A model generated the notes under the pieces. The model saw only the letters and a program-made list of their open reading frames with translations. It made no database searches and was not told where the DNA came from. Source: Planctomycetota bacterium (lineage in GTDB: Bacteria; Planctomycetota; Phycisphaerae; Phycisphaerales; SM1A02). From it: a DNA stretch of 64,000 nt. The stretch spans positions 1 through 64,000 of the forward strand of contig VGXR01000003.1 of assembly GCA_016873255.1 (NCBI GenBank), read 5' to 3'. The translations under genes were made by a program, and so were the position numbers. Below, piece after piece: positions 46,418 to 53,616 of the stretch (the stretch's first letter is position 1; each line of letters starts with the position of its first letter).

Positions 46418-47983
46418 TTACGTGCGTGGTGGTGTAGTCCGAATAATGCTTTCTACCGGCATTTCTCCGCGCGCCGCGCCCGGAAGCGCAAAGACCTCGC
46501 TGGGCATCCGCGCGTCGGTCATTCTTCTCCATGCCTCCGCCGTCTCCCGAGGGTGGTCCGCCGCCACGTCGTTTGCCTCGTTGGGGTCGGCGGCGAGGTC
46601 GAAGAGCTGCACCGGTGCCCACAGCCCGTCCGTGGCAAGCCGCAGGCGGATGGCCTTCCATCGGTGCGGTCCGTCGGTCCACGCCGCAGCCTGCTGGCCG
46701 CCGTAGCCGGGCGACTCCCAGTACCCCTCGAATGCTCGCGGGGGCTGGGGCGTGCGCCCGTCGAGCCACCCGGCGAGGTTCCGGCCGTCCGTGGGAGGGG
46801 CGCCCGCCGCGCACCATGCGTCGATGGTGGCCCGCAGGTCGACGGTCCACGCCTGGTCGTCGAGCACGCGGCCGGGCGCGATCCGCCCCGGCGCCCATGC
46901 CACGAACGGCACCCGCAGCCCGCCCTCGAAGTGGGTTCCCTTGCGGCCTCGGAGCCCTCCGGTCGACGCGAAGTACCCGGTGTCCACGCCCCCGACGTCG
47001 TGCGTCGCGCCGTTGTCGGCGGTGACCAGCACGATGGTCTCGCGCTCGATGCCGGCGGCGCGCACGGCATCGACGATGGCTCCCACGTCGCGATCGAAGC
47101 GCGAGATCATCGCCGCGTAGGCGGCGCGCGGCGTGGGGTGCGGCAGGTAGCCGCGCGACCCGTCGTAGGGCTGCTCCGGGAAGGCCCCCTCATACCCGCG
47201 CAGGTCCTCGTCGGGCACCTGCAGCGCCAGGTGCGGAAGCGGCGACGCGAGCACCAAGAGAAACGGCGCGCCCGCATGGTCCTCCACGAACCGCACGGCG
47301 GCGTCGCGGATGGCGTCGTTGGCGTAGGTTGTTCCGCCCAGCTCGACCTTCGTCCGGTCGCTCCAGAGTGATGGCGGATAGTGGTCGTGGGCCTTGCGCT
47401 GGCAGAGGTAGCCCGTGAAGCGGTCGAACCCGCAGTCAAGGGGCTCGCTTGCGCTGCCCGGGCCGCCGAGCCCCCACTTGCCGAAGAGCCCCGTCGCGTA
47501 TCCGCGCCGGTCGAGGTCGTGCACCAGCGTGGGGGTGGATGCGCCGATCGGCTGCTGGCCCTCGGCGCCGATCTCGCGGTTGTCCCGGATGCCTGCGTGG
47601 CCGGCATGCAGCCCGGTCAGGAGCATCGCCCGGCTCGGCGCGCAGACCGCGGCGGCGGAATCGAACGCCGTCAGCCGCACGCCCTCGCGTGCCAGCGCGT
47701 CGATGCGCGGGGTGCGGATCCGTGCCTGCCCGTAGCAGCCAAGCTCCGCGGCGCTCAGGTCGTCGGCAATCACGAGGATCACGTTCGGCGGGCGCGCGGC
47801 GCGCGTGCCCGGGGCCGGCAGCGGGGCGGACGGCCCTGACGCGGCGCGCGGCCGCGACGCGCAGCCCGCGAGCATCGCGCCCGCGAGTGCGGCGACGGCA
47901 AGTGCCGTCAGGGCAGCGGCCCCGGGCCGTGTCCGGCGGCCTGCGGGTAGCGTGGTGCGGTCCGGCGGGAAGGAGCGATGCAT
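46418..47983 (-). CDS. Lipoprotein sulfatase
   Basis: A type I sulfatase of 521 residues, using the formylglycine-forming motif CAPSR (Cys114, Pro116, Arg118) and metal ligands Asp74/Asp75 in IADDLSAAELGCYG. Further motifs are GKWGLGG, a downstream DNGATHDVGG metal site and GGLRVPFVAW. The N-terminus has a long Arg/Pro-rich region, then LAGAMLAGC (lipobox Cys41), so it is likely anchored in the cell envelope and acts on sulfated sugars. The proposed ATG at 47983 overlaps the H-NOX start on the other strand within CATG; an ATG at 47992 is also possible. Confidence 0.87.
   Translation of the reverse strand: MHRSFPPDRTTLPAGRRTRPGAAALTALAVAALAGAMLAGCASRPRAASGPSAPLPAPGTRAARPPNVILVIADDLSAAELGCYGQARIRTPRIDALAREGVRLTAFDSAAAVCAPSRAMLLTGLHAGHAGIRDNREIGAEGQQPIGASTPTLVHDLDRRGYATGLFGKWGLGGPGSASEPLDCGFDRFTGYLCQRKAHDHYPPSLWSDRTKVELGGTTYANDAIRDAAVRFVEDHAGAPFLLVLASPLPHLALQVPDEDLRGYEGAFPEQPYDGSRGYLPHPTPRAAYAAMISRFDRDVGAIVDAVRAAGIERETIVLVTADNGATHDVGGVDTGYFASTGGLRGRKGTHFEGGLRVPFVAWAPGRIAPGRVLDDQAWTVDLRATIDAWCAAGAPPTDGRNLAGWLDGRTPQPPRAFEGYWESPGYGGQQAAAWTDGPHRWKAIRLRLATDGLWAPVQLFDLAADPNEANDVAADHPRETAEAWRRMTDARMPSEVFALPGAARGEMPVESIIRTTPPRT
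47948..47975 (+). promoter_or_regulatory. -10-like element and Shine-Dalgarno of the NO-sensing operon
   Basis: TAGCGT at 47948-47953 could be a -10; GGAAGGAG at 47968-47975 precedes ATG 47982 with normal spacing. Unlike many unit-leading genes here, this one has a leader and a ribosome site. The whole element lies inside the sulfatase coding region. Confidence 0.35.
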
Positions 47984-48542
47984 GTACGGCATGGTGAACC
48001 AGGCGCTCGAGGCGATGATCAAGGAGACGGCGGGCCCCGAGGCCTGGGCCCGCATCACCGCGCAGGCCGGTGTCGACGAGCCCGCCTTCGTGGCCATGAA
48101 GCAGTATCCCGACTCCGTGACGTACGCGCTTGCAGGCGCTGCCGCGGAGGAACTCGGCATGCCCCTCCCGAAGGCGCTGCATGCCTTCGGCGTGTACTGG
48201 GTGTCCTACGCCGACCGCGGACCGTGGGGCAAGCTCATGCATGCCTCCGGGCGCAACACCTACGAGCTGCTGGCCGCTCTCGACGAGATGCATGCCCGCA
48301 TCGCGCTCAGCTTCCCGGAGCTCCGACCGCCGTCGTTCGGCGTCGAGCGCGTGCAGGACGGCGTGCTGGTCGAGTACCGCAGCGATCGCCCCGGGCTTGC
48401 GCCGTTCGTCGTGGGGCTGATCGAGGGCCTCGGCAGGCTCTACCGCGAACGCGTGGAGGTGCGGCAGGTCGATTCGCGCGATGCCGGCGCCCCGCACGAC
48501 CGGTTCCACGTCCGTGCGTTCCCGATGGAGGCGGAGGCCTGA
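47982..48542 (+). CDS. H-NOX heme nitric oxide sensor, first copy
   Basis: The 186-residue protein matches H-NOX along its length: MYGMVNQALEAMI start, heme-ligating His104 in LDEMHARI, and the YxSxR heme-propionate motif (Tyr132, Ser134, Arg136 in YRSDR). By alignment with Tyr140 of the oxygen-binding Thermoanaerobacter protein and Ile145 of guanylate cyclase beta1, the distal-pocket residue is Phe142. The lack of Tyr there predicts an NO sensor, not an O2 carrier. It is followed at once by a second H-NOX gene and a kinase with an H-NOXA domain, so it probably controls that kinase. Confidence 0.92.
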   Translation: MYGMVNQALEAMIKETAGPEAWARITAQAGVDEPAFVAMKQYPDSVTYALAGAAAEELGMPLPKALHAFGVYWVSYADRGPWGKLMHASGRNTYELLAALDEMHARIALSFPELRPPSFGVERVQDGVLVEYRSDRPGLAPFVVGLIEGLGRLYRERVEVRQVDSRDAGAPHDRFHVRAFPMEAEA

Positions 48543-49099
48543 TGCTCGGCTTGGTCAACCAGGCACTGCAGGAGATGGTCACCGAACGCCTCGGCACCGA
48601 GGCGTGGGACCGGATCCGCCAGCAGGCCGGCGTGCAGGACCGCGTGTTCGTGGTCATGCGCCAGTACCCGGACCAGGTGACCTACGACCTCGCGGGCGCG
48701 GTGGCCGCGCAGCTCGGGGTGCCGCTGCCGGATGCCCTGCATGCCTTCGGCCACTACTGGATGGCGTTCGCCGAGCGGCAGCCCTGGGGCAAGGTGATGT
48801 ACGGCATGGCATCGAGCGTGCGCGAGCTGCTCCCTGCGCTCAACGAGCTTCATACGCGCCTTGCGCTCTCGTTCCCCGGCGTCACCATGCCGCAGTTCCG
48901 GTGCGAGGATGCCGAGGGCGGGGCGCTGCTCGTCCACTACTTCTCGCCGCGGCCTGGGCTTGCGCCCTTCGTGCACGGCGTGCTCGAGGGGATCGGCGCC
49001 ATGTACGGCGAGGCGATCGAGGTGCGGCAGGTGCAGTCGCGCGACGGCGGTGCCGCGCACGATGCGTTCCTGGTCACGTTCCCGGGCGGGGGGGCCTGA
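48542..49099 (+). CDS. H-NOX heme nitric oxide sensor, second copy
   Basis: The 185-residue protein is a paralogue of the preceding one, about half identical by eye. It keeps His104 (LNELHTRL), YxSxR (Tyr133, Ser135, Arg137 in YFSPR) and a non-Tyr distal residue (Phe143). The start shares one base with the first copy's stop (TGATG), so both are translated together. The conserved ligands suggest that both bind heme; they may form homodimers, a heterodimer like the alpha/beta pair of soluble guanylate cyclase, or respond to different NO levels. Confidence 0.92.
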   Translation: MLGLVNQALQEMVTERLGTEAWDRIRQQAGVQDRVFVVMRQYPDQVTYDLAGAVAAQLGVPLPDALHAFGHYWMAFAERQPWGKVMYGMASSVRELLPALNELHTRLALSFPGVTMPQFRCEDAEGGALLVHYFSPRPGLAPFVHGVLEGIGAMYGEAIEVRQVQSRDGGAAHDAFLVTFPGGGA

Positions 49100-49101
49100 C
49101 C

Positions 49102-50715
49102 GTGCCGCAGGACGGGCCGGCCGTCATCGACCGCCTCTTCCCGTTCCACGTGCGCATCGCCGCGGACGGGACGGTGACCGCCGTCGGTCGCTCGCTCGCC
49201 AAGGTGTTGCCCGACGCGCCGGGCGCGGCATTCCTCGATCGCTTCGAGCCGCAGCGGCCGCGCGCATCGTCGATGGACGAGGTGCGGTCGCTCGTCGACC
49301 GGCTTGCGGTCATCGGCATCCGCGGCACCTCGCTCCAGATGCGCGGGCAGTTCGCCGACCTCGGGAACGGCGAGCTGGCCTTCGTTGGTTCGCCGCGCAT
49401 CGTCGACCAGAGCAGCATGTGGTCGTGGCCGGTGGGGATCCGCGACTTCGCGCCGCACGACGGCAGCGCCGACTACGCGATGGTGATCGAGGCCGCCAAC
49501 ATGCAGCTCGGCGACCTCGAGCGCCTGGTGGCCACCCTGCAGGAGAAGGAGCGCGAGGAGCGCCGGCTGCGCGAGGCCGCCGAGTCCGCCAGCGCGGCCA
49601 AGAGCAACTTCCTCGCCAACATCTCCCACGAGATCCGCACGCCGATGACCGCCATCCTCGGCTTCGCCGAGCTGCTCCGCGACGGCAACGCCGATCCTGC
49701 GGAGCGCGCCGACTGGGTCGAGACCATCCGCCGAAACGGTGACCACCTGCTGGCCATCATCAACGACCTGCTCGACCTCTCCAAGATCGAGGCCGGGCGG
49801 TTCGACCTCGAGCTGGGCGCCGTTTCCGTTCCCGACGTGGTGCGCGACGTGGCGCGCCTCCTCGCGGTGCGCGCCATGAGCAAGGGCATCCGGCTGGATC
49901 ACTCCGTGCAGGATGAACTTGCCCGCGTGCCCGTGCGCAGCGACCCGGTCCGCATCCGGCAGATCCTCCTCAACCTCGTGGGCAATGCCGTGAAGTTCAC
50001 CGAGCAGGGCGGGGTCGACATTGCCGTGTCCGCGGAGGCTGTGGGCACGCGCGACATCGATATCCGGGTGGCCGTGCGCGACACCGGCCGCGGGATCGAT
50101 GCGGCGCTCCTTCCCGGGCTGTTCGAGCCCTTCACCCAGTCCGACACCTCTCACACTCGCGAGCACGGCGGCACGGGGCTCGGGCTCTCCATCAGCCACC
50201 GCCTGGCGACGCTCCTCGGCGGGTGCATCGAGGTGGCCAGCGAGCAGGGTCGCGGGAGCGTGTTCACGTTCGTGTTCCGGGCACCGCGCGCCGACGCGGC
50301 CGACCTGCCCGAACCGCTGCCGCTGCCGGCGCGGCCGGCATCTTCGGGGCCGCTGGTGGGCGTGCGCGTGCTCCTCGTCGAGGACAGCATCGACTCGCAG
50401 CGCATCCTGGCGGCGCTGATGCGGATCGCCGGCGCCACGGTGGACGTCGCGGCCGACGGCATCTCCGCGGTCTCCCGCTTCGACGGCAGCTACTCGCCGG
50501 ACCTCGTGCTGATGGACATCCAGATGCCCGGGATGGACGGCATCGAGGCCACCGAACGCATCCGTGCCCGCGGCTACTCGGGGCGCGTGGTGGCCCTCAC
50601 GGCCGCGGCCCTCAGCATCGACCGCGAGCGGGCGCGCCGCGCCGGGTGCGCGGGCGTGCACCTGAAGCCGGTGTCTCGCGACGACCTGATCGCCATCTGC
50701 CTCGGCGAGAAGTAG
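49102..50715 (+). CDS. H-NOXA-domain soluble hybrid histidine kinase
   Basis: A 537-residue kinase without membrane helices. Residues 1-135 match the H-NOXA (HNOBA) domain: RLFPFHVRIAADGTVTAVG, LQMRGQFADLGNGELAFVGSP and VGIRDFAPHDGSADYAMV. A coiled coil (about 133-168) connects to HisKA (His176 in NISHEIRTP), HATPase (N box NLVGNAVKF; DTGRGID; GTGLGLS) and a receiver with Asp472 (VLMDIQMPGMDG) and Lys522. H-NOXA plus coiled coil is the linker of soluble guanylate cyclase. GTG 49102 begins 2 bp after the second H-NOX stop. The kinase is the likely target of one or both H-NOX proteins; its downstream regulator is not nearby. Confidence 0.92.
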   Translation: MPQDGPAVIDRLFPFHVRIAADGTVTAVGRSLAKVLPDAPGAAFLDRFEPQRPRASSMDEVRSLVDRLAVIGIRGTSLQMRGQFADLGNGELAFVGSPRIVDQSSMWSWPVGIRDFAPHDGSADYAMVIEAANMQLGDLERLVATLQEKEREERRLREAAESASAAKSNFLANISHEIRTPMTAILGFAELLRDGNADPAERADWVETIRRNGDHLLAIINDLLDLSKIEAGRFDLELGAVSVPDVVRDVARLLAVRAMSKGIRLDHSVQDELARVPVRSDPVRIRQILLNLVGNAVKFTEQGGVDIAVSAEAVGTRDIDIRVAVRDTGRGIDAALLPGLFEPFTQSDTSHTREHGGTGLGLSISHRLATLLGGCIEVASEQGRGSVFTFVFRAPRADAADLPEPLPLPARPASSGPLVGVRVLLVEDSIDSQRILAALMRIAGATVDVAADGISAVSRFDGSYSPDLVLMDIQMPGMDGIEATERIRARGYSGRVVALTAAALSIDRERARRAGCAGVHLKPVSRDDLIAICLGEK

Positions 50716-51708: not shown

Positions 51709-53616
51709 ATGCCCCGCAACGCCGATGCACCACCGCCAGTCCAGCTCGTCCTCGACTTCGACAGCACCATCGTCGCCCTGGAGGGGCTCGATGAGCTCGC
51801 CCGGATCGCGCTGGCTGAGGACCCCGAGCGCGAGCGGACCGTCGAGGCCATCGAGGCCATCACGCGCGACGGCATGAGCGGCGCCATCGGGATCGACGAG
51901 AGCCTCCGCCGCAGGCTGGCCATGCTCACCATCCGCCGCAAGCACGTCGATGCGGTGGTCCGCCTGCTGCGCCGGCGCCTCAGCCCCAGCTTCCGCAAGC
52001 ACATCGCCGCGGTGCGCCGCAACGCGGGACGCATCCACGTGGTGTCGAGCGGCTTCCGCGAGTACGTGGAGCCGGTGTGCGCGGACCTGGGCATCGCCGC
52101 GGGGCGGGTGCACTGCAACGCGCTCCGCTGGAAGGGCGACCGCGTGGTTGGTTTCGACGAGACCGGCCCGCTCGCGAAGCCCGGCGGCAAGGCGAAGGTG
52201 GTGCGGGGGCTGCGCCTCCCGGGGCGCGTGGTCGCCATCGGCGACGGCATCACCGACGCGGAGATCCGCGACGCCGGCGCCGCGCACGAGTTCGTGGCCT
52301 ACTGCGAGAACATCGAGCGCGAGGCGGCGGTGGCGCGCGCCGACCGCGTGGCGCGGTCGGTCGACGAGCTGCTCTGGCTCTACCGCCTGCCCGGCTCGCC
52401 GAGCTTCCCGAAGAGCCGCATGGCCGCGCTCCTCTGCGAGAACGTGCACCCCGACGCGGCCAAGGCGCTGCGTGACGAGGGGTACCGGGTGGAGATGGTG
52501 TCCGACGCCTTGCCCGAGGACGAGCTCGCGCGCGCGGTGCGCGGCGTCAGCATCCTGGGCATCCGTTCAAAGTCGCGCATCACGCCGCGCGTGCTCGCGG
52601 AGGCGGACCGGCTGCTTGCGGTCGGCTGCTTCTGCATCGGCACCGAGCAGGTCGACCTCGCGGCGGCCGCGGGGCGCGGCGTGGCGGTGTTCAACGCGCC
52701 CTACAGCAACACGCGCAGCGTCGTCGAGCTCGCCATCGGCGAGATCGTCATGCTGCTGCGGCGCGTCCCGGACTCGGTGCGGCTCCTGCACGACGGCGGC
52801 TGGCGCAAGAGCGCCACGGGCTGCACCGAGGTGCGCGGCAAGGTGCTCGGGATCGTGGGGTACGGGCACATCGGCTCGCAGCTCTCGATCCTCGCCGAGT
52901 CGATGGGCATGCAGGTCATCTACCACGACCTCGAGGAGCGGCTCGCGCTCGGCAACGCGCGCAAGTGCCGCACGCTCGGCGAGCTGCTCGCGAAGTCGGA
53001 TGCAGTCAGCCTGCACGTGGACGGCCGGCCGTCCAACCGCAACCTCATCGGCGAGCGCGAGCTTCGGCGCATGAAGCCCGGCGCGGTGCTCCTCAACCTC
53101 GCGCGCGGGCACGTCGTGGACCTCGACGCGGTGGCGGCGTCGATCCGCGCCGGCCACCTCGGCGGCGCGGGCGTCGACGTGTTCCCCGAGGAGCCGCTCT
53201 CCAACCGGGACCCGTTCGACTGCCCGCTGCGCGGCCTGCCGAACGTGATCCTCACGCCGCACGTCGGCGGCAGCACCGCCGAGGCGCAGCAGGCGATCGG
53301 CGAGTTCGTCGCCGCGCGGCTCGTCGACTTCGTGAACACGGGCGGCACGGGCGGATGCGTCAACCTGCCGCAGATCACGGCGCCGCCGGTACCGCGCGCG
53401 CACCGGTTCCTGCACCTGCACCGCAACCAGCCCGGCGTGCTGGCGGCGGTCAACGCGGTGCTCGCCAAGCGCCGGATCAACATCCTCGGCCAGGCGCTCC
53501 GCACCGACGACGCGATGGGCTACCTCGTCACCGACGTCGATCGCCGCTATGCGGCCGACGTCGTCGACGAGCTCAAGGCCATCCCCGGCACCGCGCGCCT
53601 CCGCGTCCTCTACTAA
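51709..53616 (+). CDS. Fused phosphoserine phosphatase and phosphoglycerate dehydrogenase (SerB-SerA)
   Basis: One 635-residue chain holds two serine-pathway enzymes. Residues 1-225 form a HAD phosphatase like SerB: DFDST (16-20, nucleophile Asp16), VSSGF, KPGGK and GDGITD (178-183). Residues 238-545 form a 3-phosphoglycerate dehydrogenase: GYGHIG NAD loop (384-389), Arg466, Glu495 and catalytic His518 (TPHVGGST). Residues about 565-635 are an ACT domain (FLHLHRNQPGVLAAVNAVL), the usual serine-sensing regulatory module. The chain joins the first and last steps of serine synthesis; the middle enzyme SerC is not in the window. AGAGGTGA precedes ATG 51709. Confidence 0.92.
   Translation: MPRNADAPPPVQLVLDFDSTIVALEGLDELARIALAEDPERERTVEAIEAITRDGMSGAIGIDESLRRRLAMLTIRRKHVDAVVRLLRRRLSPSFRKHIAAVRRNAGRIHVVSSGFREYVEPVCADLGIAAGRVHCNALRWKGDRVVGFDETGPLAKPGGKAKVVRGLRLPGRVVAIGDGITDAEIRDAGAAHEFVAYCENIEREAAVARADRVARSVDELLWLYRLPGSPSFPKSRMAALLCENVHPDAAKALRDEGYRVEMVSDALPEDELARAVRGVSILGIRSKSRITPRVLAEADRLLAVGCFCIGTEQVDLAAAAGRGVAVFNAPYSNTRSVVELAIGEIVMLLRRVPDSVRLLHDGGWRKSATGCTEVRGKVLGIVGYGHIGSQLSILAESMGMQVIYHDLEERLALGNARKCRTLGELLAKSDAVSLHVDGRPSNRNLIGERELRRMKPGAVLLNLARGHVVDLDAVAASIRAGHLGGAGVDVFPEEPLSNRDPFDCPLRGLPNVILTPHVGGSTAEAQQAIGEFVAARLVDFVNTGGTGGCVNLPQITAPPVPRAHRFLHLHRNQPGVLAAVNAVLAKRRINILGQALRTDDAMGYLVTDVDRRYAADVVDELKAIPGTARLRVLY

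Follow-up and report, generated by a model that had tools for sequence, protein, structure and literature searches.

A tandem pair of H-NOX sensor genes beside an H-NOXA hybrid histidine kinase in a planctomycete

How might two nitric oxide (NO) sensors share a single kinase? The question is raised by a locus in a bacterium of the Planctomycetota (assembly GCA_016873255.1), on the first 64,000 nucleotides of contig VGXR01000003.1, a stretch that we refer to as a whole as the window. Here three plus-strand genes follow one another end to end: H-NOX-A (47982-48542), H-NOX-B (48542-49099) and a hybrid histidine kinase with an N-terminal H-NOXA domain (49102-50715). The ATG of H-NOX-B overlaps the stop codon of H-NOX-A (TGATG), and the GTG start of the kinase lies two bases 3' of the H-NOX-B stop. 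We consider it likely that the locus is an NO-sensing operon of the Nostoc type, related to soluble guanylate cyclase (sGC), in which the sensor has been duplicated and signals through the H-NOXA kinase. The domains and motifs of the three proteins, the linkage of their genes, their conservation, the selection acting on them and the independent origins of such sensor pairs carry this reading.

Two sensors and one H-NOXA kinase

Both sensors match the H-NOX profile PF07700 over their full length. H-NOX-A (186 amino acids, distal to the kinase) scores 144.8 bits (E 3e-42) and H-NOX-B (185 amino acids, adjoining the kinase) 147.3 bits (E 4.9e-43), the cut-off being 25.5 bits. The residues named in the original prediction, which was made from the sequence alone, are all in place: the proximal heme ligand His104, the YxSxR motif (YRSDR in A, YFSPR in B) and a Phe on the distal side, Phe142, at the site of sGC Ile145. 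His104 and Arg106 lie within 48291-48299 in A and within 48851-48859 in B. Both proteins are predicted to bind heme and, because they lack a distal Tyr and carry Phe142, NO rather than O2 (PMC1435932). The closest PDB entries for H-NOX-B are Alr2278 (E about 1e-41) and sGC beta1 (about 1e-30), followed by other bacterial H-NOX at about 1e-9.

The kinase (537 amino acids) matches the H-NOXA profile PF07701 in two stretches with 43.4 bits (E 3.6e-11; cut-off 23.4 bits), placing the PAS-like H-NOXA domain at about residues 5-120 (49114-49461), and a search by sequence also finds 2p08 (E 4.5e-5). In an AlphaFold model of the N-terminus (predicted local distance difference test score, pLDDT, 92.6) a PAS fold spans about residues 5-108 and one long helix residues 121-166. 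When this model was compared with the PDB by fold, every one of the top 21 matches was an H-NOXA chain of sGC or of Nostoc punctiforme, the next-best other PAS fold having an E-value about 1000-fold worse. The N-terminal domain is thus a genuine H-NOXA, as had been proposed. The modelled helix, a signalling helix or coiled coil (49462-49599), runs into HisKA (residues 166-232, 49597-49797; PF00512, E 2.1e-24), where the phospho-acceptor His176 (49627-49629) lies in the motif SHEIRTP. HATPase_c with its N, G1 and G2 boxes follows (residues 281-394, 49942-50283; PF02518, E 2.3e-28), and then a C-terminal receiver (residues 423-531, 50368-50694; PF00072, E 1.8e-21) with the phospho-acceptor Asp472 (50515-50517) in the motif LMDIQMP. 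This is the domain order first proposed, and the active-site motifs (H176, N-box, G1, G2 and D472) are all intact. By Pfam scan the kinase has no cyclase domain, and the H-NOX domains are on separate chains.

The host genome is 2.78 Mb long, and those relatives in its family that carry names are Phycisphaerales and other planctomycetes. It contains two H-NOX proteins and one H-NOXA protein, all of them at this locus, so the two sensors and the kinase form a closed set. Within the window the sensors are 58% identical to each other. Compared with single-sensor relatives A is 62% and B 49% identical, making B the more divergent copy. At 15 sites each copy has its own fixed residue, His71 and Met116 being among the exchanges in B, and in none of the 11 system-bearing genomes of the window's genus (g1) has B lost Arg106, the heme His or YxSxR. 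In the closest genome pairs the ratio of nonsynonymous to synonymous substitution rates (dN/dS) lies around 0.03-0.08 in A and 0-0.14 in B; both sensor copies are under purifying selection.

The order A, B, kinase is found in 11 of the 14 genomes of the genus; both H-NOX and H-NOXA are missing from the remaining three (64-86% complete). The layout recurs in every system-bearing genome of the genus, and each of the three genes shows a dN/dS well under 1, so the layout cannot be put down to an error in a single assembly. Duplication of a single sensor gene during assembly was rejected in view of the identity between A and B and the same order in 11 genomes. A scan for promoters and terminators at the locus gave nothing useful. 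Local denitrification was considered as a source of NO and rejected, since no copper nitrite reductase in the genome scored above cut-off and the oxidase family gave one match; other NO-related genes were not searched.

A widespread operon and repeatedly duplicated sensors

We scanned bacterial and archaeal genomes with the sensor alignment and inspected the loci of the 80 best relatives. An H-NOXA protein was adjacent in all 80, which come from cyanobacteria (49), planctomycetes (24), organisms without a named phylum (4), and one each from Acidobacteria, Gemmatimonadetes and Rhodospirillaceae. Within the order, H-NOXA occurs in 64 of 301 genomes, all 64 in the window's family and almost always adjoining H-NOX. 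Given this linkage and the solved Nostoc relatives, H-NOX with an H-NOXA kinase is a widespread and already described system, the Nostoc arrangement. The novelty that the original prediction implied for an H-NOXA kinase therefore falls away, because the structure from Nostoc punctiforme (2p04/2p08) already made such kinases known.

The outputs joined to H-NOXA vary. Other members of the family carry H-NOXA proteins with HWE kinases, and in one species (G223, locus L073), the single case among 181 family genomes, H-NOXA is fused to a class III cyclase. Two cyanobacterial loci encode H-NOXA-GAF-PAS-GGDEF-EAL proteins beside H-NOX by Pfam (L143, 1472-4276; L187, 5114-7903), a direct tie between H-NOXA and cyclic di-GMP enzymes. 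With histidine kinase, HWE kinase, GGDEF-EAL and class III cyclase outputs, H-NOXA looks like a general adaptor from H-NOX to several outputs. Some further loci were met along the way. A large H-NOXA protein lies beside H-NOX in another cyanobacterium (L152, 1565-4393), and one H-NOXA Pfam match was weak (E 3.5e-4, below cut-off). In genome G018 (L092) the H-NOX is split over two frames and the H-NOXA reading frame is short, a system that appears to be decaying. A second, one-sensor H-NOX and H-NOXA locus accompanies the paired one in G362 (L205, contig 15), a 79% complete bin in which it may be contamination.

The doubled sensor is the unusual and new part of the locus, which is a variant of the known one-sensor operon. 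A survey of gene neighbourhoods for the two-sensor layout, as the original prediction had proposed, found it in all system-bearing genomes of the genus and also in family genomes G123, G162, G193, G277 and, with the kinase first, G195. In all, 12 of the family loci read have sensor pairs, compared with 0 of 49 cyanobacterial loci. In the sensor tree the derived copy is on different sides in different lineages. A single origin of all pairs was rejected, as the tree branches force separate origins and approximately unbiased (AU) tests reject one clade of derived copies (p 3e-49 and 8e-6). The sensor duplication arose at least four times independently in the family, each time with a single kinase. 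No papers on H-NOX in tandem or on H-NOX of planctomycetes came up in a literature search that does not extend to most subscription journals. Repeated duplication of the sensor against one kinase lets one see, as a natural experiment, how a single output is shared by two H-NOX proteins.

Docking, output and the sharing of one kinase

Two residues past the heme-ligating His, position 106 is Arg in 150 of 150 H-NOXA-linked H-NOX, whereas the 14 unlinked H-NOX all have Glu or Gly (Arg in 0/14). The invariance of Arg106 across phyla points to a function, and this sequence pattern suggests a docking role. Its positional counterpart in sGC, beta His107, touches the partner's coiled coil in the resting enzyme (PMC8196705). 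On the kinase side, alignment to 6jt0_B identifies Arg52 (49255-49257) as the counterpart of sGC beta1 Arg258 (Arg in 122 of 142 H-NOXA proteins) and Arg81 (49342-49344) as that of Lys307 (Arg or Lys in 142 of 142), and sGC beta Arg258 and Lys307 are heme-helix contacts in the resting or active state (PMC8196705). The original prediction of an H-NOX action on the kinase by way of H-NOXA gains support from the linkage in 80 of 80 loci, the Arg106 signature and these conserved sGC-type contact residues. We infer from the sequence comparisons that each sensor uses its heme helix to dock on H-NOXA and changes the signalling helix.

As to the output, 12 loci of a sister clade (genera g5, g8 and g10; L048, L051, L053, L059, L061, L064, L071, L077, L081, L085, L087 and L093) have a receiver gene 3' of the H-NOXA kinase on the same strand. 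An HD-GYP motif, characteristic of cyclic di-GMP (c-di-GMP) phosphodiesterases, is present in 11 of the 12 receiver genes (the exception is L081), and all three of those scanned with Pfam encode receiver-HD proteins. Because the sister operons add a receiver-HD-GYP gene, the output of the system is probably c-di-GMP. In the window's genome a plausible route to c-di-GMP is found on contig 34 (G000, locus L208, 1438-2710), where the sole stand-alone Hpt found in the genome is followed by a receiver-GGDEF gene. This Hpt is conserved in 13 of 14 genus genomes.

From binding through the direction of switching to the phosphorelay, we would expect the following. Each H-NOX would bind heme and NO, and the bond between His104 and the iron would be lost or shifted so that the heme helix moves. 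The exposed face of that helix (position 101 and Arg106) would lie against the kinase H-NOXA (Arg52, Arg81) and the signalling helix. A change in the signalling helix would then alter autophosphorylation of His176 and phosphotransfer to the kinase's own receiver at Asp472, from where the phosphate would probably pass via the stand-alone Hpt to the adjoining receiver-GGDEF protein, altering c-di-GMP. The path from NO-bound H-NOX through H-NOXA to the coiled coil is a structural question that the human NO receptor also poses, and it has been said that structures of bacterial H-NOX with their partners would help (PMC8196705). Small, separately encoded proteins would let the H-NOX/H-NOXA signal step be isolated, with Arg106 and Arg52 as specific candidate residues.

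Several observations weigh against this reading. Arg106 versus Glu splits two clades, and shared ancestry could account for some of the signal. Asp106 of sGC is not retained, the position being mostly Ala or Thr here, and Asp101 is replaced by Asn in the window's H-NOX-B. When a sister-genus H-NOX was read through its stop codon into H-NOXA and modelled by AlphaFold as a single chain, the individual domains folded correctly, and the joined sister-species model did not reproduce the domain placement of sGC beta1 (template modelling (TM) score about 0.5, root mean square deviation about 14 Å), a result that is neutral on docking. The proposed Hpt route rests on this Hpt being the sole stand-alone one found, and the same Hpt is also present in members of the genus without H-NOX.

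How labour would be divided between the two sensors allows several explanations. Because the docking face is common to both, the likeliest arrangement is that A and B act on the same kinase dimer, whether each takes one H-NOXA domain or the two compete, and that what sets them apart is their heme environment or affinity. It is quite possible, if short of probable, that the second sensor serves dosage or affinity tuning, with A and B competing for one site and differing in NO affinity or off-rate, which would widen the response range. The shared docking residues amid differing surroundings (the fixed exchanges in B) fit this, as does the precedent of Saccharophagus degradans described below, but the differences between A and B could also be drift under weak constraint. 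We regard as somewhat unlikely an obligate A-B pair that occupies both H-NOXA domains of a kinase dimer as a split counterpart of sGC alpha-beta. Histidine kinases are dimers, the presumed docking face is kept in both copies, and both sensors are retained in 11 of 11 genomes with their copy-specific fixed sites; however, most relatives make do with a single sensor and the same type of kinase, so that a pair is not generally needed, and the side of the derived copy differs between lineages. The fuller proposal, that A and B each sit on one H-NOXA of a single dimer in the manner of sGC alpha-beta, are tuned to different NO levels, and that this pairing evolved at least four times independently in the family, seems to us unlikely.

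That B has acquired another partner or ligand, for example in redox sensing, and has ceased to regulate this kinase would agree with its greater divergence, but its docking Arg, heme ligand and YxSxR motif are kept in 11 genomes, it directly adjoins the kinase, and no further H-NOXA protein was found in the genome; we judge this distinctly improbable. The original prediction had called the locus a dismantled guanylate-cyclase-like sensor, which would make it an operon derived from an sGC-like fused protein. The domains and their order are indeed the same, and one relative has the H-NOXA-cyclase fusion. Nevertheless, bacteria usually encode H-NOX and the H-NOXA kinase as separate genes, a form that prevails in five phyla against that one cyclase in the family, and animal H-NOX has been inferred to be acquired from cyanobacteria (PMC1435932), so that sGC looks like the later, fused form and not the ancestor. 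A dismantled cyclase is thus extremely improbable, and a Nostoc-type operon with a duplicated sensor remains the reading we prefer.

Elsewhere, at 51709-53616, the window encodes a HAD hydrolase (phosphoserine-phosphatase-like) fused to a D-3-phosphoglycerate-dehydrogenase-like protein with an ACT domain; its counterparts in five sister genomes are about 82-87% identical.

Comparison with known systems

Nostoc Alr2278 and the N. punctiforme H-NOXA kinase (2p04/2p08) are the nearest PDB relatives of the window's sensor and kinase H-NOXA, and in both cases H-NOX has a gene of its own that lies immediately upstream of the gene for the H-NOXA histidine kinase. The same arrangement is present in N. 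punctiforme NIES-2108 (L184). The window has the same-strand H-NOX adjoining an H-NOXA kinase that marks the Nostoc-type operon, but two sensors instead of one, departing from a norm of one sensor per kinase that is not strictly defining. Most of the kinases in these Nostoc systems are also shorter, with reading frames of about 490 amino acids.

Bacterial H-NOX genes usually come singly, as the original prediction rightly stated, though S. degradans has two (SDE_3804 and SDE_3557) listed with one histidine kinase, SDE_3803 (PMC8738867, Table 1). Its two H-NOX genes are far apart by locus number, and the likeness to the window lies in the count of sensors per kinase. The H-NOX proteins of Shewanella oneidensis and Vibrio cholerae each regulate a histidine kinase, and the relay from that kinase changes c-di-GMP (PMC8738867), a likeness to the output proposed for the window; the S. 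oneidensis H-NOX is more distant from the window's sensor, with a PDB score of only about 1e-9. Animal sGC shares with the window the order H-NOX, H-NOXA, coiled coil, and several of its contact residues have counterparts here. In the window, however, the proteins are separate, a kinase replaces the cyclase output, and the heme residues are present in both sensors.

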